A stretch of DNA of 64,000 bases from the NCBI GenBank assembly GCA_026709935.1, contig JAPOSC010000041.1:1-64000 (forward strand). The letters run 5' to 3'. The translations under genes and the position numbers were made by a program. The notes under the pieces were generated by a model, which saw only the letters and a list, made by a program, of their open reading frames with translations, had not been told where the DNA came from and ran no database searches. Origin of the DNA: Thiotrichales bacterium (GTDB taxonomy: Bacteria; Pseudomonadota; Gammaproteobacteria; HK1). Below are positions 4,488 through 62,701 of the stretch, piece by piece; positions within the stretch are counted from its first letter, which is position 1; each line of letters starts with the position of its first letter.

Positions 4488-6752
4488 ATGAGCGCCCCCT
4501 CCCCGGAAAGTGAGTCGTCTCCAGGCTCCTCCACCCCGGGCAAGTTCGGCCGCTACGTCGTTCGCCGGGCCATCGGACGTGGAGGCTTCGCCACCGTATA
4601 CGAGGGATTCGACGGCGAGCTCGAACGGCCCGTCGCGATCAAGGTCGCGCACATCGGACGTACGGACTCCAGCGAAGGGCGGGCCGCGTTCATCAAGGAA
4701 GCCCGCCAGCTCGCCCGCCTGCAGCATCCCCGTATCGTCACCGTGTTCGACGCCGGAGTCGAAGGAGAGCACCGTTATATCGTCTCCGCGCTGCTTTCGG
4801 GCAAGAGCCTGCTCTCGCATCTGAAGCAGCGCCGACCGGACTTCCGGGAGACCGCACAGACCGTCGCCGACATTGCGGACGCGCTTGCGCACGCGCATGC
4901 GCAGGGGGTGGTGCACCGTGACGTCAAGCCCTCCAACATCATCCTGACCGACGACCAGGGTCCGGTCCTCATCGACTTCGGTCTGGCGTTCAATCAGGGC
5001 GACGCGGCGGCGTTGCCCCCCGGACGCGCCGCGGGTACCCCGAGCTACATGGCGCCGGAGCAGATCGCCGGCAAGGGGCACGCAATCGGTGCGCGCAGCG
5101 ACATCTACAGCCTCGGGGTCGTGCTCTACCGCATGCTCTGCGGCACGCTGCCGTTCGTCGCCACCGACAAGGAGAAGCTCTATCGCCAGATCGTCGAGGT
5201 CCAGCCCGAGCCACCATCGAGGATCGACGGCGAGGTGCCCGAGGAGCTGGAACGGATCTGCCTGCGGGCGATGGCGAAGGATCGGGGCGAGCGCTACGAG
5301 ACGGCAAGGGATCTCGCCGATGATCTGCGGGGTTATCTCTACACCGGCGCCGGTGGAGAGACGGAGCGCTCGGGCATGGAGCACGCGATGTTCATCGAAG
5401 AGTCGTCCGTCATCGAGAGCGGTGCGAGCGTGGCGTCCGTGACGATCGACGCGCTCGATGTGCGGGCCTGTCTCCAGGATGGCTGCGAGGCGCTCGACAA
5501 GGCGCACTACCTGCGAGCGCGCAAACGGTTCGAGGCCGCCCTGGAGGCGGTGGCGGTCTCCGATACCCTCGCCGCGGCGGAAGTCCGGATCCATGTCGGC
5601 CTCGTGCACGCGCTGTTGCTCGTCGAAGGCCCGGCGCATCCGGCGATCGAACGCTCGCTCTCCCGCGCGCTGCTGCTCGCAGGATGGGAAGGAGACGAAG
5701 AGACCCGGATGGCGGCCCTGGGGCTTGCGTCGGCGGCGGCGCTGGCGCGCGGAGATTGCGATGGCGGCCTGGAGCTCGCGCGCGAGCTGCTTTCCGACGT
5801 GCGCGAGCGCGAGACCGAGCCGCTGTTCGTCGAGGCCCACCGAGTCGCCGGCGTGGCGCTCAGCATGCTCGGCGACCGTGCCGCGGGCGGCACCCATCTC
5901 GACATGGTCATCGATCGATACCGACCGGGAGAGCCCGGTGCCGGCGCCGTCAGCGGCACCTACGACGCCGGTGTGGTGTCACTCGCCTGTCTCGCCTCGA
6001 ATTTCTGGACGTTGGGACAGCTCCGCCTGAGCGAGCATCGGTTGTCCGAGGCGCTGATGTTGGCGGAGCGCATCGAGCACCCTCCGACCGACGCCTTCGT
6101 CCATGCGGCGGCCGCGCGGATCCTCGCCGAGCGCCGGGACTGGATGGGCGCCCGCGACGCGGTCGGGCGGCTCCTGCGGGTCGCGAGCGGACACGCGCTT
6201 GCGGAGTGGCTGCCGTGGAGCGCGGTCCTCGATGGACTGGTGACCGCGGCGGGGGGCGACCTCGACGAGGGCATCGTGCGGGTCCAGGACGGCCTGAACG
6301 GACTGCGCAACGTCGGCGTGGACGCCGGTCGGATCTATGCGCTGCTGACCCTCGGACGCCTGTGTCTGGCCGGCGCCCAGGTGCAACGGGGGCTCGAAGC
6401 CGTCGACGAAGCCCTCGCTCTGTGCGGTGAGCGCGGGCGCGCGCAGGAGCACCTCTCGGAGCTGTTCCGGATCCGGGCCGCGCTGCTTCTCGCCCAGTCC
6501 AGCGAGCTGGAGCCGGAAGCGGAGGATCTGCTGATGCGCGCCTACGATGTCGCCCGCAATCAGACCGCGCGCATGCACGAGCTGCGCGTGGTGCTGGATC
6601 TTGTACCGTTGTGGGCCCGGGCCGGGAGGAACGCCGAGGCCGTTGTCGCCATCGATGCATCGCTCCAGTGGTTCGAGGAGGGTGACAGCGCCCAGGAGCT
6701 CGCCCTGGCGCGGGCGTTGCGGGTCCGGATCGACGAAAACGTCGGGTCGTGA
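4488..6752 (+). CDS. Ser/Thr protein kinase with TPR-like C-terminal region
   Basis: 754 residues. The N-terminal Hanks-type kinase domain (about 20-330) has the glycine loop GRGGFATVY, the ATP-binding Lys52 in VAIKVA, the catalytic loop HRDVKPSN (Asp145), DFGLA (Asp163) and an activation segment ending GTPSYMAPEQ, so it should be active. The C-terminal 400 residues are Ala/Leu-rich helical pairs that look like TPR repeats and end in a long helical array; there is no transmembrane segment, so it is probably cytoplasmic. Its stop overlaps the next start by four bases (GTGA), implying translational coupling with the C45-family enzyme. Substrates are unknown. Confidence 0.88.
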   Translation: MSAPSPESESSPGSSTPGKFGRYVVRRAIGRGGFATVYEGFDGELERPVAIKVAHIGRTDSSEGRAAFIKEARQLARLQHPRIVTVFDAGVEGEHRYIVSALLSGKSLLSHLKQRRPDFRETAQTVADIADALAHAHAQGVVHRDVKPSNIILTDDQGPVLIDFGLAFNQGDAAALPPGRAAGTPSYMAPEQIAGKGHAIGARSDIYSLGVVLYRMLCGTLPFVATDKEKLYRQIVEVQPEPPSRIDGEVPEELERICLRAMAKDRGERYETARDLADDLRGYLYTGAGGETERSGMEHAMFIEESSVIESGASVASVTIDALDVRACLQDGCEALDKAHYLRARKRFEAALEAVAVSDTLAAAEVRIHVGLVHALLLVEGPAHPAIERSLSRALLLAGWEGDEETRMAALGLASAAALARGDCDGGLELARELLSDVRERETEPLFVEAHRVAGVALSMLGDRAAGGTHLDMVIDRYRPGEPGAGAVSGTYDAGVVSLACLASNFWTLGQLRLSEHRLSEALMLAERIEHPPTDAFVHAAAARILAERRDWMGARDAVGRLLRVASGHALAEWLPWSAVLDGLVTAAGGDLDEGIVRVQDGLNGLRNVGVDAGRIYALLTLGRLCLAGAQVQRGLEAVDEALALCGERGRAQEHLSELFRIRAALLLAQSSELEPEAEDLLMRAYDVARNQTARMHELRVVLDLVPLWARAGRNAEAVVAIDASLQWFEEGDSAQELALARALRVRIDENVGS

Positions 6753-17520: not shown

Positions 17521-17574
17521 CATCGGTTCAGCCATTCCCGCCGGGCCGGAGCACGTTCTCTGGATGGCCCGCCA
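17521..17574. repeat. Dispersed repeat family A, copy (reverse orientation)
   Basis: The reverse complement reads GAACGTGCTCCGGCCCGGCG followed by GGAATGGCTGAAC, matching the core of copies near 19326, 25341, 36941 and 60946. The rest of the 298-base gap 17343-17640 shows no gene; its ORFs are low-quality shadows. Confidence 0.55.
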
Positions 17575-17640
17575 TGAATGCGGCGGGGGGCGCCACGTCG
17601 ATCCCGACCGGGCGCCCCCCCTCGCCGTGGGATGGTTCGA

Positions 17641-23297: not shown

Positions 23298-25295
23298 TCA
23301 GGTCCCGATCGAAAGCCCCAGCTTGCGGCCCTCGTAGATCGCGGCTGGCGCCTGGCGGGCGGCGACGCAGTCGCCGATGGCGTGCACTTCGCGTGCCGAG
23401 CCCGCGAGGGCGTCCGCAAGCCAGCGCTCCGGGGCGTTGACCGTGGCAAGCACCAGCGCGTCGGCGTCGATGCGCCGCTCCGACCCGTCGAGCAGGTCGA
23501 CGACCGTCGCGCCGTCGCCGTGCCACTCCTTCACCGCGGACTCCACCACGAATTCCACCCCGAGGCGCTTCAGTCGCTCCCGCAGCGGCCAGTCGGCGGA
23601 GGTGCGCACGATCTCGCGTCCCACGAACGGGTCCGGGGTCACGATGGTGACCGCGTGTCCCTGTTCGGCGAGATGCCAGGCGGTGCCGCCCCCGCGCCAG
23701 GTGCCGGTGTCGTCCAGCACGATGATCCGGTGCCCGGGCCGCGCCGCGCGGCCCATCACGTCCTCCACCGAGAACACGCCGGGCCGATCGACGCCGGGGA
23801 GCCGGTCCACGGTGGGGAGCCCGCGCTGCCAGCCGTTGGCGGCGGGTTGCGAGCCGGTCGCGAGCACCACCACGTCCGCGTCGAAGCCCTCCACCTCGTC
23901 GGGGTCCATCGGAGTGTTGAGGCGCACGACCACCTGGAGCTTGGTGAGCTGGCGCTCGTACCAGTCGATAAGGTCGAGAATCTGCCCGCGTCGCGGCTGC
24001 ATCCCCGCCAGCCGGAACTGGCCGCCCAGTCTGTCCGACGCCTCGGTGAGCGTGACGCGATGACCCCGTTCCGCCGCTGCCCGTGCCGCCTCCAGTCCGG
24101 CCGGACCGCCGCCCACCACCAGGACCGAGCGCGGTGACTCGCTGCGGGTGAACCGGTCCCCGCCCCACTCGAATTCGCGCCCCGCCGACGGATTGACGAG
24201 GCAACTCACCCAGTAGTCGCGCGAGCGCCGGCCCCAGCACATCTGGTTGCACGACAGACACGGCCGCACGTCTTCGGCCCGCCCCTCGCGCGCCTTGTTC
24301 GCCAGGTGCGGGTCCGCGATCTGGCCGCGCACGATGCTCACCATGTCGGCCTGGCCGGAAGCGATGACGTAGTCCGCGTTCTCCGGGGTGCGGATGTGGC
24401 TCTCCGCCTGCACCTTTGCGTGCCGCACCGCCTGCCTGATGCGCTCCGCCCAGGGTGGACCCAGCTTGTCCTCGTAGACGAATGTCGGCATCAGGCGCGT
24501 GAATTCGAAGTAGCTGCCGGTGCCCACTGTCACGTAGTCGTAGAGGCCGCGTGCGTCGTGCCAGGTCGCGATTTCCTGTTGGTCCTCGACCGAGAGCACG
24601 TCGGGGCGAGTGGGGTCCACGCTCACACAGACTCCGATCACGAAGTCGGGGCCGCAGCGCGCGCGGATCCGCGTGAGGGTCCGCGCCGAGAACTGCATGC
24701 GTTTCTCGAACGACCCGCCCCACGCGTCGTCGCGGCGGTTCGAATACGGCGACCAGAACTGCTCGAAGAGCGCGTTGTAGGCGGCCATGATCTCGCAGCC
24801 GTCGAACCCCGCCTCCTTCGCCCGGCGCGCGGCCTCGGCGAAGCCCTCGACGAGCTCTTCGATCTCGGCTTCCGTCATTGCGTGGCTGCCGTCCTGATCG
24901 TGCATGGAGGGCAGCCCCGACGGCGACCAGTTGGGCTGGTAGGAGAGGTCGAAGTCGCCGTGCGCGCCCACGTGGTAGAGCTGCTGGATCATCACCGTGC
25001 CGTGCTCGTGGCAGGCGTCGGTGATGCGGCGAAAGTGCGGGATGACGCCGTCGTCGCCGTGGCGGAAGTTGCCGCGCGTGAGCACCGCGGTGCGGTGGAT
25101 GGGCACTGGCTCGACCACGATCATGGCCGCCCCGCCCATGGCGCGCTCGAGGTAGTAACCGAGGTGGCGTTCCGCGGGCAGGCCCTCGGCGCTCATGTTG
25201 GCGGTGTGGGCGCCGAAGTTCAGGCGGTGCTTGAGGGTCTTCGCCCCCACCTGAATGGGACGGAAGAGGTGGGGGAAGGGGGTTGGCGTGGTCAT
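23298..25295 (-). CDS. NADH:flavin oxidoreductase, 4Fe-4S old-yellow-enzyme type (2,4-dienoyl-CoA reductase / N-methylproline demethylase-like)
   Basis: 665 residues. An OYE barrel (about 1-370, with IQQLYHVGAHG and FEQFWSPYSNRRDDAWGGS) is followed by an FAD/NAD module beginning VLVVGGGPAGLEAARA (about 395). The iron-sulfur motif RPCLSCNQMC with a fourth Cys in SCLVNP is intact, unlike in the neighbouring DgcA-like protein. Relatives include 2,4-dienoyl-CoA reductase, trimethylamine and histamine dehydrogenases, and N-methylproline demethylases; the neighbourhood favours an N-demethylase. The ATG at 25295 is followed by LFRPIQVGAKTLKHRL, the typical N-terminus. Confidence 0.85.
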   Translation of the reverse strand: MTTPTPFPHLFRPIQVGAKTLKHRLNFGAHTANMSAEGLPAERHLGYYLERAMGGAAMIVVEPVPIHRTAVLTRGNFRHGDDGVIPHFRRITDACHEHGTVMIQQLYHVGAHGDFDLSYQPNWSPSGLPSMHDQDGSHAMTEAEIEELVEGFAEAARRAKEAGFDGCEIMAAYNALFEQFWSPYSNRRDDAWGGSFEKRMQFSARTLTRIRARCGPDFVIGVCVSVDPTRPDVLSVEDQQEIATWHDARGLYDYVTVGTGSYFEFTRLMPTFVYEDKLGPPWAERIRQAVRHAKVQAESHIRTPENADYVIASGQADMVSIVRGQIADPHLANKAREGRAEDVRPCLSCNQMCWGRRSRDYWVSCLVNPSAGREFEWGGDRFTRSESPRSVLVVGGGPAGLEAARAAAERGHRVTLTEASDRLGGQFRLAGMQPRRGQILDLIDWYERQLTKLQVVVRLNTPMDPDEVEGFDADVVVLATGSQPAANGWQRGLPTVDRLPGVDRPGVFSVEDVMGRAARPGHRIIVLDDTGTWRGGGTAWHLAEQGHAVTIVTPDPFVGREIVRTSADWPLRERLKRLGVEFVVESAVKEWHGDGATVVDLLDGSERRIDADALVLATVNAPERWLADALAGSAREVHAIGDCVAARQAPAAIYEGRKLGLSIGT

Positions 25296-25340
25296 TGGGC
25301 CGCGATTCCGCTGGCGATCCGAAAAGCGGTCACGTGGTGT

Positions 25341-25432
25341 GATTCCGGCGAGATGTCAGCCGGCGGAGCGTCCATTCGGGGTGATTCCGTGCGCATGTTC
25401 CGGTCTGGCGGGAATGGCTGAACATTGGCGGG
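25341..25432. repeat. Dispersed repeat family A, copy
   Basis: It contains GATTCCGGCGAGATGTC, GTCCATTCGGGGTGATTCCG, GCGCATGTTCCG and CTGGCGGGAATGGCTGAAC. It aligns with 60946-61040 in the same order and spacing, and lies upstream of the OYE-type gene on the minus strand. Confidence 0.6.
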
Positions 25433-36940: not shown

Positions 36941-36984
36941 CGGCCGTCGTTCCCGCCGGGCCGGAACATGTCCTCGCCCCGAAC
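36941..36984. repeat. Dispersed repeat family A, copy (reverse)
   Basis: The reverse complement reads GTTCGGGGCGAGGACATGTT then CCGGCCCGGCGGGAACGACG, matching the core of the other copies. Confidence 0.55.
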
Positions 36985-37042
36985 AGATGTCATTACTCCG
37001 AACAGACGTTCCAGGGGCCGGAATCTCGCCGCAGTCGCACCA

Positions 37043-37080
37043 CGGGCCGGCCCCTCGGAGTGCCGTCGGGAATCGCTGCG
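37043..37080. repeat. Dispersed repeat family B, copy 1
   Basis: CGGGCCGGCCCCTCGGAGTG followed by CCGTCGGGAATCGCTGCG; about 80 percent identical by eye to the copy 106 bases downstream. Confidence 0.6.
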
Positions 37081-37148
37081 ACAGCGGGGTGTACGTCCCA
37101 TGGTTCGCAGTGAACGCGGCGGGGGTCGATACCTCGTCGGAATCGCAA

Positions 37149-37186
37149 CGGGCCGGCCTGTCGGAGCGCCAGCGGGCATCGCCGCC
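37149..37186. repeat. Dispersed repeat family B, copy 2
   Basis: CGGGCCGGCCTGTCGGAGCG followed by CCAGCGGGCATCGCCGCC; same orientation as the copy at 37043. Confidence 0.6.
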
Positions 37187-42172: not shown

Positions 42173-42356
42173 TGCGGGACGGGGAGCAGGCGGGGAAACA
42201 TCGCTCGGGGGGGAACGATGCGAGGGGGCGCCATCGCGCCGTGCCGATTCGGCAGTCTTTCGGCCTTCGGAGCGTCCGGCCGGGCCGGCATGGAGCGCCG
42301 GTTCCGGCCCCGTGGGAATTCCTGTCCGGCGGGCGTGGTCCGGACGATTGATCCCG

Positions 42357-45299: not shown

Positions 45300-46022
45300 A
45301 TGTTCGACGTAGGATTCCAGGAAATCACGCTGATCGGCCTGATCGCGTTGATCGTGGTCGGTCCCGAGCGGCTGCCCCGAATGGCGCGCACCCTCGGGTT
45401 GTGGGCGGGCAAGATTCGCTTCTACGTGAATCAGGTCAAGAGCGACATCGATCGCGAGGTGCGGGCCCAGGAGCTCAAGGAGATGCTCGACAAGCCGGCG
45501 CGCGAGCTCGACGATCTCAAGAGCGTTGCCGAAGAGACGAAGGGCACGCTCGATCGGGCCAGAGGTGCGCTCGGAGAGGCGAAGGCTTCGTTCGACGGTG
45601 CGGTGACCGGAGGAACTTCGACGGCCAACGAGCCGGCCGCGGGATCGATCTTCCCGACCGAACTGCCGGGCACCGGGCCGGCGCGGCCGGAACCGTCGGA
45701 GACGGTGACCGCGCCCTCCGCAGAGACGGCTCCGCCGCCGTCGGATTTGCCGGAGACGGCCTCCGTGCCTTCCGCGGAAACGAATCCGGCGTCCTCCGAC
45801 TCACCGGAAACGGCATCCACGCTTTCTACGGAGACGGCTCCGCCGCCGTCCGACTCACCGCCGACGGTTTCCGTGCCTTCCGAGGAGATGAATCCGATAA
45901 CGGAAGACCGCGATCCGACGGCCCGGCCGGAGCCGGACGCGGCGGCTTCCGGCGCACCGGGGTCACCCTCCGTCGCAATGCAGGCCCGCGAGAGTGATGA
46001 ACGACCCAGCGAAAGACACTGA
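45300..46022 (+). CDS. tatB: Twin-arginine translocase subunit TatB with repeat-rich tail
   Basis: 240 residues. The N-terminal part (FDVGFQEITLIGLIALIVVGPERLPRMAR) is typical TatB. The C-terminal half is an acidic Pro/Ser/Thr tail made of four 18-residue tandem repeats (codons 134-205, such as ETASVPSAETNPASSDSP). TatB recognises Tat signals with TatC. The tail is longer than in E. coli (171 aa total). tatC overlaps its 3' end by 26 bases. Confidence 0.93.
   Translation: MFDVGFQEITLIGLIALIVVGPERLPRMARTLGLWAGKIRFYVNQVKSDIDREVRAQELKEMLDKPARELDDLKSVAEETKGTLDRARGALGEAKASFDGAVTGGTSTANEPAAGSIFPTELPGTGPARPEPSETVTAPSAETAPPPSDLPETASVPSAETNPASSDSPETASTLSTETAPPPSDSPPTVSVPSEEMNPITEDRDPTARPEPDAAASGAPGSPSVAMQARESDERPSERH
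45699..45914 (+). repeat. 54-bp tandem repeats (about four units) inside tatB
   Basis: Four imperfect 54-base units encode 18-residue repeats. Units share the pattern (E/P)T(V/A)(S/T)xxSxExxP...SDxP, the last one being the most degenerate. Confidence 0.8.
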
Positions 46023-59158: not shown

Positions 59159-59923
59159 GTGAAGGTTGAGGTGGATCGTCTCGGACGGGTGGCGCGGCGC
59201 CGGTTTCTCGCGCGGGCGGGGATCGCGGCCGGTGCGGTCCTGGCGTCCGGACTCGCTCTGGTGCCTCTCGCCCGTGCCGGTCGGACCCGTGAACCCCACG
59301 AGCCGGTCACCGGCGAAGTCCGCTACGGACTGTTCATCGACTCCGCCCGGTGCGCACGGGACTGCGACGCCTGTGTCCGTGCCTGCAACGACGAGCACGG
59401 TCTCGAACCGGTGCACGGACCGGCCACCGATCCGCAGTGGATCCAGAAGGTCACGCTCCGCGACCGTGCGACCGGCCGAGTCAGCGCCCTGCCGCTCATG
59501 TGCCAGCACTGCGCGGACCCGCCGTGCGTCGACGTCTGCCCCACCGGCGCCTCGTTCCGGCGCGCCGACGGCATCGTGCTCGTGGACAAGCACACCTGCA
59601 TCGGCTGCCGCTACTGCGTGATGGCGTGCCCCTTCCAGGCGCGCGCGTTCGTGCACGAGGCGGTGGAGAACCCGAGGCCCTGGTCCCCGCGGGGCAAGGG
59701 CACGGTGGAGTCGTGCAACCTCTGCGTGCACCGCATCGACGCGGGAGACGGCCGCAACCCCGCGTGCGTCGAAGCGTGCGCCGCCACCGGACGCCACGCG
59801 ATCATCTTCGGTGATCTCAACGACCCGGAGAGCCCGATCTCGAAGGCGCTTGCCAACGGCCCGAGCGCGGAACTCCGCCCCGACTTCAGCCTGGACACGG
59901 GCGTGCGCTACCGGAACCTTTGA
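59159..59923 (+). CDS. dsrO: DsrO, Tat-exported periplasmic ferredoxin
   Basis: 254 residues from GTG 59159, eight bases after GGAGGGA; an upstream in-frame GTG at 59123 is less likely. The twin-arginine signal RVARRRFLARAGIAAGAVLA fits the Tat consensus. Four cluster motifs follow: CARDCDACVRAC, CQHCADPPCVDVC, CIGCRYCVMAC and CNLCVHR...CVEAC. It connects DsrJ and DsrP. Confidence 0.95.
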   Translation: MKVEVDRLGRVARRRFLARAGIAAGAVLASGLALVPLARAGRTREPHEPVTGEVRYGLFIDSARCARDCDACVRACNDEHGLEPVHGPATDPQWIQKVTLRDRATGRVSALPLMCQHCADPPCVDVCPTGASFRRADGIVLVDKHTCIGCRYCVMACPFQARAFVHEAVENPRPWSPRGKGTVESCNLCVHRIDAGDGRNPACVEACAATGRHAIIFGDLNDPESPISKALANGPSAELRPDFSLDTGVRYRNL

Positions 59924-60202
59924 GCGAGCTGGCCGACCGGCTCCGGAACACCGATCTCAAGGCCGCCGACAAGCCCGAAACCGGATCGAGGGCACCGCCG
60001 TGTACCCGCGCCGCCGGCACCAGATCAATCATGTGACTGAACCGCTCCGGTGACCGGTTGGCCGGGTCAGCACCGCGGGACGGAGGCGGCGACAGGCCAA
60101 CGGTCGGGACAAGAGGTGTTCCTGTCCCGGCCGCGAGACGGTGGTCGCCGCCTGCATGGCGCCGCGCCCGGGGTTGATGCCGGGCGCTGGAGGCAGCCGG
60201 GG
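59924..60202. other. 279-base gap after dsrO with a hairpin
   Basis: GGGACAAGAGGTGTTCCTGTCCC near 60104-60128 forms a 6- to 7-base stem without U-run. A 37-codon frame starting TTG at the dsrO stop (SELADRLRNTDLKAADK...) is possible but unrecognised. Confidence 0.4.
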
Positions 60203-60937
60203 TCAGAACGAGAATCGGACCCCCAGAGACAGTTCTCCGGTTGCGACCTCGAATTCGTCCCGGCCGAGGCCGGTCGTGGACGGGTCGGTGTAGACCTTGC
60301 CGTACTCGACTCTCCGGTACAGCAGATCCATCGCGACGCTGTCGGTCAGTTGAAACGCAAGACCCGCCCCGTAGCTGTAGGCTATCCCGTGATTGTCAGC
60401 GCCAGGAACCAGAGCCGGAGGTGGAATGTCAGACGTGAACGTCAGGCTTTTCACGTCAACGTTCGCGTATCCGGCGCCGGCATGCAGGAACGGCGAAACC
60501 CTCCCTTTCGCATTGAAATGATAGGCAAGGTTGAGAAACAGGGATTGCATGGTGACATCGCCGCCGATGTGGGCCGGCAGCATGAGTGCATTGCCGCCCA
60601 ACTGAGGAATCTCCTCGGGTATGTCTATAATCGCGCGCCCGTCCACGTTGGCCGTCCGCCGCGCGTACTCGATTTCCCAGAGAAGCCCGGGCAGGAACAG
60701 TTCCGTACCGACCGCAATGCCGAAGGATCTTGCGTCGTCAGTGGGGATATCCCGCGTGATGATCCCGACCGCGTCCTCTGTCGTCACCTTGTCGGGCGTT
60801 GTGAACCCTACAAACGGTCGAATGTGAAACCCGCGTTCCTCTTCGGCGTGCAGATCGTGCGGGACAGATCCGAGCGCAAGCAGGGCCAATCCCAACATCG
60901 CAGCAATTCCCGCTGCTCTCCCCCGAGAGGTCGTCAT
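60203..60937 (-). CDS. Outer-membrane beta-barrel protein (OmpA/OmpW-like), opposite strand inside the dsr cluster
   Basis: 244 residues. A signal peptide (AAGIAAMLGLALLALGSVPHDLHA) is followed by alternating strands such as FHIRPFVGFTTP, WEIEYARRT, SPFLHAGAGYANVDV, HGIAYSYGAGLAF and a C-terminal LSLGVRFSF. The terminal Phe is the usual insertion signal. Probably an eight-stranded barrel; function unknown. It lies on the minus strand between dsrO and dsrP. ATG 60937 is chosen as it begins the signal peptide; a family A repeat lies just upstream. Confidence 0.82.
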   Translation of the reverse strand: MTTSRGRAAGIAAMLGLALLALGSVPHDLHAEEERGFHIRPFVGFTTPDKVTTEDAVGIITRDIPTDDARSFGIAVGTELFLPGLLWEIEYARRTANVDGRAIIDIPEEIPQLGGNALMLPAHIGGDVTMQSLFLNLAYHFNAKGRVSPFLHAGAGYANVDVKSLTFTSDIPPPALVPGADNHGIAYSYGAGLAFQLTDSVAMDLLYRRVEYGKVYTDPSTTGLGRDEFEVATGELSLGVRFSF

Positions 60938-61483
60938 GCGGTGCGACTCCGGCGAGTTTCGGGTCTCCCGGGTGTCCATTCGGGTCGGTTTCGGGAGCAT
61001 GTTCCTGGCGGGAATGGCTGCCAACATCGCGGGCCAGGAAGAGATTGCCCTGGCGAATGATCGGCTTGTCTTGTCGTGGGTCGCGGAAGGTCTCATCAGG
61101 AATTCCCTCGTGTTGTTCATGGCGATCATAGCGCCCAGGTCGCCGCCACGGTATCCACGGGCGTGCCGATTATCGCTTCGGCGTATCAGCGACATGCTCC
61201 GGCTCGGGGGAGTACCGGTGCTTTCCCGAGAGTTCGGGATTCAAGATGGGGCATTGCCTTCCGCGTCCGTGACTTGGCGGGAGAGGCAGGTTTATGCTCC
61301 GGTCGGGGCGCAGGAACGCGTCGCCCGCGGGGCGGCGGTCGAGCGGTTCGAGGCGCAGCGCGCGGGATGGAGGGACGCCGGCTTGTTCATCGGGGAGATT
61401 CCGGCCGCCCGTCACGAGGGATACCGATATCGAGTGCTTTCGTGCTCGATGCGTCGGTCAAGGTGACGGCGGCACGCAAGGCC
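60938..61483. other. 546-base stretch between OMP and dsrP
   Basis: It carries a family A repeat (60946-61040). The rest, including a frame ending at 61466, has no recognisable gene; some of it could be a remnant. No clear dsrP promoter was found. Confidence 0.5.
60946..61040. repeat. Dispersed repeat family A, best-preserved copy
   Basis: ACTCCGGCGAGTTTCG, TCTCCCGGGTGTCCATTCGG, GTTTCGGGAGCATGTTCC, GGCGGGAATGGCTG and CGCGGGCCAGG occur in the same order as at 19326 and 25341. Confidence 0.65.
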
Positions 61484-62701
61484 ATGCGCCACATCGAATT
61501 TCGCGAGACCGAAGGCCGCGGCGCCGGATTTCCGGCCCTGGTGCTGTTGCTCGCGCTCGTGACTCTCGCCGGCGTTCTCGCCGGACATCACATGGACGTC
61601 GAGGGGCATCACGTCACCGGCATGAACAACCGCATCGTATGGGGGCTGCCGCATGTGTTCGCGGTATTCCTGATCGTGGCCGCCTCCGGGGCGCTCAATG
61701 TCGCCTCGCTCTCCTCGGTGTTTCGGCGCCCTGCGTACGAGCCGCTGGCCCGGCTCTCCGCCGTGCTCGCGATCGCGCTGCTCGCGGGTGGGCTGACGGT
61801 GCTGGTGCTCGATCTCGGCCGCCCGGACCGGCTCGTGGTGGCGATGACGCACTACAACTTCTCGTCCATCTTCGCCTGGAACATCCTGCTCTATACCGGC
61901 TTCATGGCCGTGGTCGTCGTGTACCTGTGGATACACATGGAGCGCCGGATGCAGCGCCATGTGCGATGGGCCGGCGTCGTGGCGTTCGCGTGGCGCATCG
62001 TGCTCACCACCGGCACCGGCTGCATCTTCGGCTTCCTCGTCGCACGTCAGGCGTACGACGCGGCGATCATGGCCCCGATGTTCGTGGCGATGTCGCTGTC
62101 GCTGGGGCTCGCGGTGTTCATCCTGGTGCTGCTGGCCGCGGCATCGATGACCGCACGCCCCCTCGACGAGGGCCTGCTCCGGCGGCTTGCCCGCCTTCAG
62201 GCGCTTTTCGTCTCGGTGGTGCTCTACTTCGTCGTCGCCCGGCACCTCGCGAACCTCTACGTGGCCGAGCACGGTGCGGTGGAGCGGTTCCTGCTCCTCG
62301 ACGGCGGTCAGTATCCGGTGGTGTTCTGGGTCGGGCAAATCCTGGCCGGCACGCTGGCGCCGCTCGCCATCCTGTGGTGGTGGCGCCCGCGGTCGCGCGG
62401 CTGGACTGCGGCCGCGGCGGCGCTGGTGGTGGTGGGAGGTCTGAGCCAGCTCTACGGCATCATCATCGGCGGTCAGGCGGCGCCGCTCGACATCTTCCCC
62501 GGCAAGGAGGTCATCGAGGGTGCGCTCATCGCGGGGGAGCCGGCAAGCTACGCGGCCCGCCTCCCCGAGTTGCTCCTCGGTCTCGGCGGTGCCGCCGTTT
62601 CCGGGCTGATTCTCGTCGTTGCGGTGAGAGTGCTGAGGATTCTTCCCGAGCGGCTCGACGAGGCGGGCGCCGACGACACCGGTAACGTCTACGGTCGCTG
62701 A
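61484..62701 (+). CDS. dsrP: DsrP, NrfD-like membrane quinol-interacting subunit
   Basis: 405 residues, about ten membrane helices. GHHVTGMNNRIVWGLPHVFAV, VASGALNVAS-like AASGALNVASLSSVFRRPAY, VLDLGRPDRLVVAMTHYNFSSIF and TTGTGCIFGFLVARQAYD match DsrP. ATG 61484 begins MRHIEFRETEG, aligning with the known N-terminus; a GTG at 61463 is an alternative. It is separated from dsrO by 1.56 kb with an opposite-strand gene, so it needs its own promoter. Confidence 0.94.
   Translation: MRHIEFRETEGRGAGFPALVLLLALVTLAGVLAGHHMDVEGHHVTGMNNRIVWGLPHVFAVFLIVAASGALNVASLSSVFRRPAYEPLARLSAVLAIALLAGGLTVLVLDLGRPDRLVVAMTHYNFSSIFAWNILLYTGFMAVVVVYLWIHMERRMQRHVRWAGVVAFAWRIVLTTGTGCIFGFLVARQAYDAAIMAPMFVAMSLSLGLAVFILVLLAAASMTARPLDEGLLRRLARLQALFVSVVLYFVVARHLANLYVAEHGAVERFLLLDGGQYPVVFWVGQILAGTLAPLAILWWWRPRSRGWTAAAAALVVVGGLSQLYGIIIGGQAAPLDIFPGKEVIEGALIAGEPASYAARLPELLLGLGGAAVSGLILVVAVRVLRILPERLDEAGADDTGNVYGR

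Follow-up and report, generated by a model that had tools for sequence, protein, structure and literature searches.

Prokaryotic MITEs, such as Chunjie, QMITE1/2, and Nezha, are noncoding elements of less than 500 bp that are bounded by inverted ends (TIRs) of 4-30 bp, and the direct repeats at their younger copies fade with age (PMC10969869). REPs, by contrast, consist of palindromes of 20-40 bp that carry GTAG or CGTC at one end and produce no target duplication (PMC3733652). The repeat family analyzed here was found in a 64,000-nt stretch of DNA from an uncultured gammaproteobacterium of the Thiotrichales (hereafter, the window). It resembles described MITEs in its size, TIRs, lack of coding capacity, and fading direct repeats, and differs in being GC-rich, whereas MITEs are typically AT-rich (PMC10969869). 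We conclude that the repeats are decaying DNA transposon relics (MITEs) that form a new family of a known type of element. Very likely they are old MITE copies, and an insertion sequence that is apparently lost from this genome but kept in close relatives probably mobilized them. No description of the family was found in the literature searched, in agreement with the original prediction that it is undescribed; nor was its TIR printed there for any mobile element, the sole match being to an unrelated mouse study. The analysis supplies the end signal of the family, its target-site duplication (TSD), and its likely partner transposase.

The consensus element is 122 bp long. The original prediction had described blocks of 80-95 bp; these are real members of the family, but they represent only its inner and 3′ portion, and the copy placed at 60946-61040 in fact occupies 60901-61020. 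Upstream of the predicted start lies a CAGCRATTCCCGC-like 13-mer that, apart from minor differences, matches the reverse complement of the terminal GCGGGAATGGCTG. The element thus has imperfect, 13-bp TIRs (CAGCGATTCCCGC...GCGGGAATGGCTG) with CAGC at both ends, and in young copies from the same-genus genomes G002 and G004 the TIRs extend to 17-19 bp. Per-column conservation is slightly higher in the TIRs (87%) than in the interior (80%). No encoded protein was found in the 122-bp element, although the frame of a neighboring gene may cross one copy. The TIRs, a 9-bp TSD, the true length, and the identity as a MITE with a candidate partner in a sister genome had all been overlooked.

Copies were scored with a 122-position model (R1) that uses sequence only and was trained on 22 copies from the same genome, three of them from the window. 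All five places named in the original prediction hold members of the family, though with borders other than those given, and R1 finds seven in the window, including two that had been missed (37106-37182 and 42221-42323). The next match after the seven is background (10.2 bits, E 0.04). The features are as follows.

17529..17600, - strand: MITE 3′ fragment, model positions 51-122; 23.3 bits
19283..19404, + strand: full MITE copy, 122 bp, TSD worn (3/9); 91.1 bits
25301..25420, + strand: full MITE copy, TSD 6/9, near an NADH:flavin oxidoreductase-like gene; 97.8 bits
36945..37078, - strand: MITE copy interrupted by a small insertion, 3′ TIR degenerate; 73.6 bits
37106..37182, - strand: second MITE copy, 5′ part, adjoining 36945..37078; 41.2 bits
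42221..42323, + strand: diverged MITE copy without the 5′ end; 41.6 bits
60892..60900, no strand: left TSD CCAACATCG of the 60901..61020 copy, 9/9 identical to the right side
60901..61020, + strand: full MITE copy, 120 bp, with both TIRs, CAGCAATTCCCGC...GCGGGAATGGCTG, corresponding to the copy first reported; 87.2 bits
61021..61029, no strand: right TSD CCAACATCG of the 60901..61020 copy, 9/9 identical to the left side

With up to two mismatches, GGCGGGAATGGCTG occurs seven times in the window, where 1.43 occurrences would be expected, and in 100 shuffles the count never reached seven; some of these matches belong to the element's opposite end. At the copy first reported at 36941, the end motif is degenerate (GGCGGGAACGACGG). 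The two copies at 36945-37078 and 37106-37182 (- strand) are adjacent and share the same orientation, and the genome contains further closely spaced pairs, such as L170:4507-4635 (+) with 4645-4765 (-). Separately, direct repeats with a 54-nt spacing were observed at 45678-45893, probably a repeat inside a coding sequence.

A BLAST search of the whole genome (3.78 Mb, 88 contigs) with positions 60895-61025 as query gave 34 matches at E ≤ 0.1, and the 13-mer, with at most one mismatch, occurred 100 times compared to six for the reversed control. With R1, at least 149 whole or partial copies were detected in this genome, a lower bound as 150 of 4338 candidates were scored. In a 625-kb sample chosen regardless of copies (the window and contigs C18 and C34), 42 copies were present (25 matches in 356.5 kb and 17 in 268.6 kb), or ~67 per Mb, a density that implies ~250 copies per 3.78-Mb genome. 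The expectation of hundreds of copies per genome was therefore borne out, and at ~250 × 122 bp the family would make up ~0.8% of the genome. Alignment of the copies is far above background.

According to gene calls from a simple hexamer method, 36 of the 42 sampled copies lie mostly outside genes, compared to 14% of random intervals. The claim that all copies are intergenic consequently holds for most of them, but not strictly. Among the six exceptions, the copy at 25301-25420 was assigned to a gene in error, as Pfam backs a gene on the opposite strand (23298-25295) and gives no support to the ORF that had been called; this copy lies ~5 bases from the start codon of the NADH:flavin oxidoreductase-like gene (25293-25295, - strand; Pfam). 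The sister genome G002 lacks the copy, and the matching gap between conserved blocks is 24 bp there vs. 190 bp in the window. The reading frame of a predicted outer-membrane β-barrel gene (60203-61195, - strand) stays open through the MITE at 60901-61020, and the start codon of this gene may lie inside the MITE or its TSD. The likely signal peptide of this ORF, MTTSRGRAAGIAAMLGLALLALG, would start within the MITE, or within the TSD if a later ATG is used. For the gene next to the 60901 copy, no ortholog was found, as the stretch 59800-61500 gave only short, partial matches in relatives. The intergenic accumulation fits survival of those insertions that spared genes, and no host function is supported.

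The copies are flanked by TSDs of 9 bp. Among 30 copies from this genome, a mean of 6.3 of 9 flanking bases matched, compared to 2.34 when flanks were mispaired between copies, and among 28 copies from sister genomes the mean was 8.18 of 9 vs. 2.57 in the mispaired control. Lengths of 7, 8, 10, and 11 bp, as well as every other offset, remained at control level. A 9-bp flank duplication is the signature of a DNA transposon that cuts with a 9-bp stagger. Joined-flank searches between G004 and G002 yielded no base-exact empty site for 10 copies, because synteny is broken and the intergenic regions have diverged.

These properties bear on the possibility that the family consists of REP/BIME-type repeats dispersed by a RAYT (Y1) transposase. 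Such a repeat would likewise be short, dispersed, mostly intergenic, and palindromic in consensus; however, the length of 122 bp, the TIRs, the CAGC ends, and the 9-bp TSD fall outside the REP definition, and the TSDs contradict it. The anatomy of TIRs and TSDs also argues against a linked RAYT. We regard this explanation as very improbable, and the earlier observation that the family is not REP-like was correct.

A second alternative holds that the repeats are a structured RNA or cis-regulatory element (a terminator, riboregulator, or mRNA stabilizer) under selection at many loci. The copies do lie between genes, and the consensus folds strongly, as expected of a palindromic MITE, at -69 kcal/mol as RNA and with a z of -4.7 as single-stranded DNA. 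Of the four full copies in the window, however, two showed no stronger folding than their shuffled versions. In an alignment of 22 copies, 78.2% of cells pair vs. 78.0% with the 3′ letters shuffled, and covariation was 0.144 vs. 0.147 in shuffles, so no conserved secondary structure was detected and the palindromic consensus fold is not maintained across copies. That pairs decay as in shuffled columns, with covariation not raised, speaks against selection at the RNA level. Rfam gave no match within the window, and the TSDs are evidence of insertion. A structured RNA was rejected on these grounds and is very improbable.

The reading as MITEs is in accord with the distribution of the family among relatives. 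The R1 profile scan recovered the family in 5 of 55 genomes (E ≤ 0.001, strict filters), namely its own, three congeneric genomes (G002, G003, and G004), and one of another genus in the same family (G006; three matches). Confinement to the window and a drop of identity to background had been named in the original prediction as contrary to it, and neither was observed. Under the same filters there was no match in a further same-genus genome (G001), the other 11 genomes of the family, or 38 genomes from other families of the class. Nearest-copy identity was at most 81% for 22 copies of the window's genome, which average 82% identity to the consensus (n = 22), and 93-99% for 14 of 20 sampled G004 elements; samples were picked by TIR pattern or R1 score, and the contrast between the two genomes is indicative. 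G002, G003, and G004 carry younger copies than the window's genome, and the young sister copies together with the worn copies here constitute a natural series of MITE decay after the presumed loss of the transposase.

A candidate for the partner is present in G004, where inward-facing TIRs 1621 bp apart have the same 13-17 bp ends (CAGCAATTCCCGC...) as the MITEs, are flanked by a perfect 9-bp duplication (ACCGTCCAG), and enclose a 438-aa ORF. Pfam DDE_Tnp_1 was matched by 5 of 6 aligned proteins of this transposase group (E ≤ 0.01), and the residues D131, D220, and E337/E339 are invariant in the alignment, consistent with a DDE triad. The transposase may resemble the ISMae2 group. For the G004 protein, NCBIfam models for IS4, IS701, and IS1634 gave weak DDE-domain similarity (18.5, 15.3, and 11.3 bits, respectively), below their curated cut-offs of 150, 115, and 100, and membership in these families is not supported. 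No solved structure matched significantly. An ISNCY-annotated protein from a Gloeothece verrucosa plasmid (WP_013335080.1) is 33% identical over 89% of the G004 transposase, and G004-like ends were not found at that element. ISNCY stands for "not classified yet," and the annotation is no family assignment. The ends of elements with transposase relatives read CAGCAATT or CAGCGATT in G002, Saccharobesus, and Calothrix, with TSDs matching at 9/9; such ends were not found for relatives in Legionella, Aureispira, Gloeothece, and Methylomagnum.

The window's family is less than 500 bp long and noncoding, its TIRs fall within 4-30 bp, and its TSD length is constant; an autonomous element with the same ends exists in the sister genome G004 and was not found in the window's genome. 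No match to the G004 transposase was found in the latter at E ≤ 1e-5, in a draft MAG that is 95.9% complete and from whose assembly the gene could be missing. Beyond the first 13-18 bases, the MITE interiors in the sister genomes show no visible derivation from the insertion sequence. A 657-bp, internally deleted insertion sequence with both TIRs occurs in G002 (L156:6694-7350) and in structure falls between a full insertion sequence and a MITE. A AAAGTTTACGAAA-like motif, seen by eye, lies 5′ of the transposase gene and also within several AT-rich MITEs (loci L154:6840-6953 and, among MITEs of other lineages, L194, L203, L204, and L212), possibly left over from the parent element.

In the mechanism that we propose, the 1.6-kb insertion sequence, which shares its ends with the MITE, would supply a DDE transposase. 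This enzyme would bind the MITE at its two inverted termini and move it, cutting the target with a 9-bp stagger, repair of which would leave 9-bp direct repeats. Loss of the transposase would then account for the worn copies in the window's genome. The account is built on observed features, namely the inverted ends, fixed length, 9-bp TSDs, dispersal, younger sister copies, and a sister-species insertion sequence whose ends and TSD match; from these sequence comparisons we infer that this insertion sequence mobilized the MITEs. The shared ends and duplication length suggest that the mover was the G004 transposase or a close relative. A transposase other than that of G004 could instead have moved the family, given that the window's genome shows no G004-type enzyme; among 18 further genomes that contain this end pair, transposase matches (E ≤ 1e-5) were obtained in seven, and at the sensitivity of the search none was found in 11. 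Weighing against another mover, the G004 insertion sequence and the MITEs of the same genome have a common 13-17 bp end and a 9-bp TSD length, and in the MAG CAR1 the MITE ends and the ends beside transposase pieces agree past the 13-mer (CAGCAATTCCCGCTAAAGAGTC/CTAAAGGGTC and CTATCTAACA/CTATCTAGCA). We consider a different transposase unlikely and favor the G004-type enzyme.

The same end pair occurs in other phyla. We scanned 257 Gb of genome contigs for exact occurrences of CAGCVATTCCCGC followed, after 80-110 bases, by GCGGGAATBGCTG. The scan returned 55 stretches, compared to a chance expectation of ~0.02 (uniform-base estimate), and 8 or 9 of 9 flanking bases matched in 32 of 44 elements examined. 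Record titles of the matches named Gammaproteobacteria, Chlamydiae, Chloroflexi/Anaerolineales, Desulfobacterota-type groups, and one Gemmatimonadetes MAG; the element with the last label resembles the window's family, and the label may be a binning error. On viral contigs, no exact TIR pair was found with spacers of 18-172 bases. The interiors of the elements vary by lineage and their lengths are mostly near 122 bp, a peak that is partly built into a scan with total length fixed at 106-136 bp. When 17 scan-positive genomes were searched with the exact 13-mer and no length limit, 18 of the 21 inward pairs under 3 kb among the matches listed were 107-126 bp (the other three being 36, 214, and 315 bp), and the reversed 13-mer was found in none of the 17. 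These genomes had been selected via short pairs, and the result supports, but does not prove, a preferred MITE length. It is conceivable, though on balance doubtful, that MITEs across phyla combine a common end signal and 9-bp TSD with unrelated interiors and a preferred length of ~121-124 bp, the transposase selecting for length instead of interior sequence, for example through DNA phasing between the ends. With an end signal that crosses phyla, a length constraint on MITEs becomes testable. In the genomes of loci L201, L195, and L225, the 13-mer was often located 40-130 bases from contig ends among the matches listed, a pattern that would arise if assemblies are interrupted by copies of the element.
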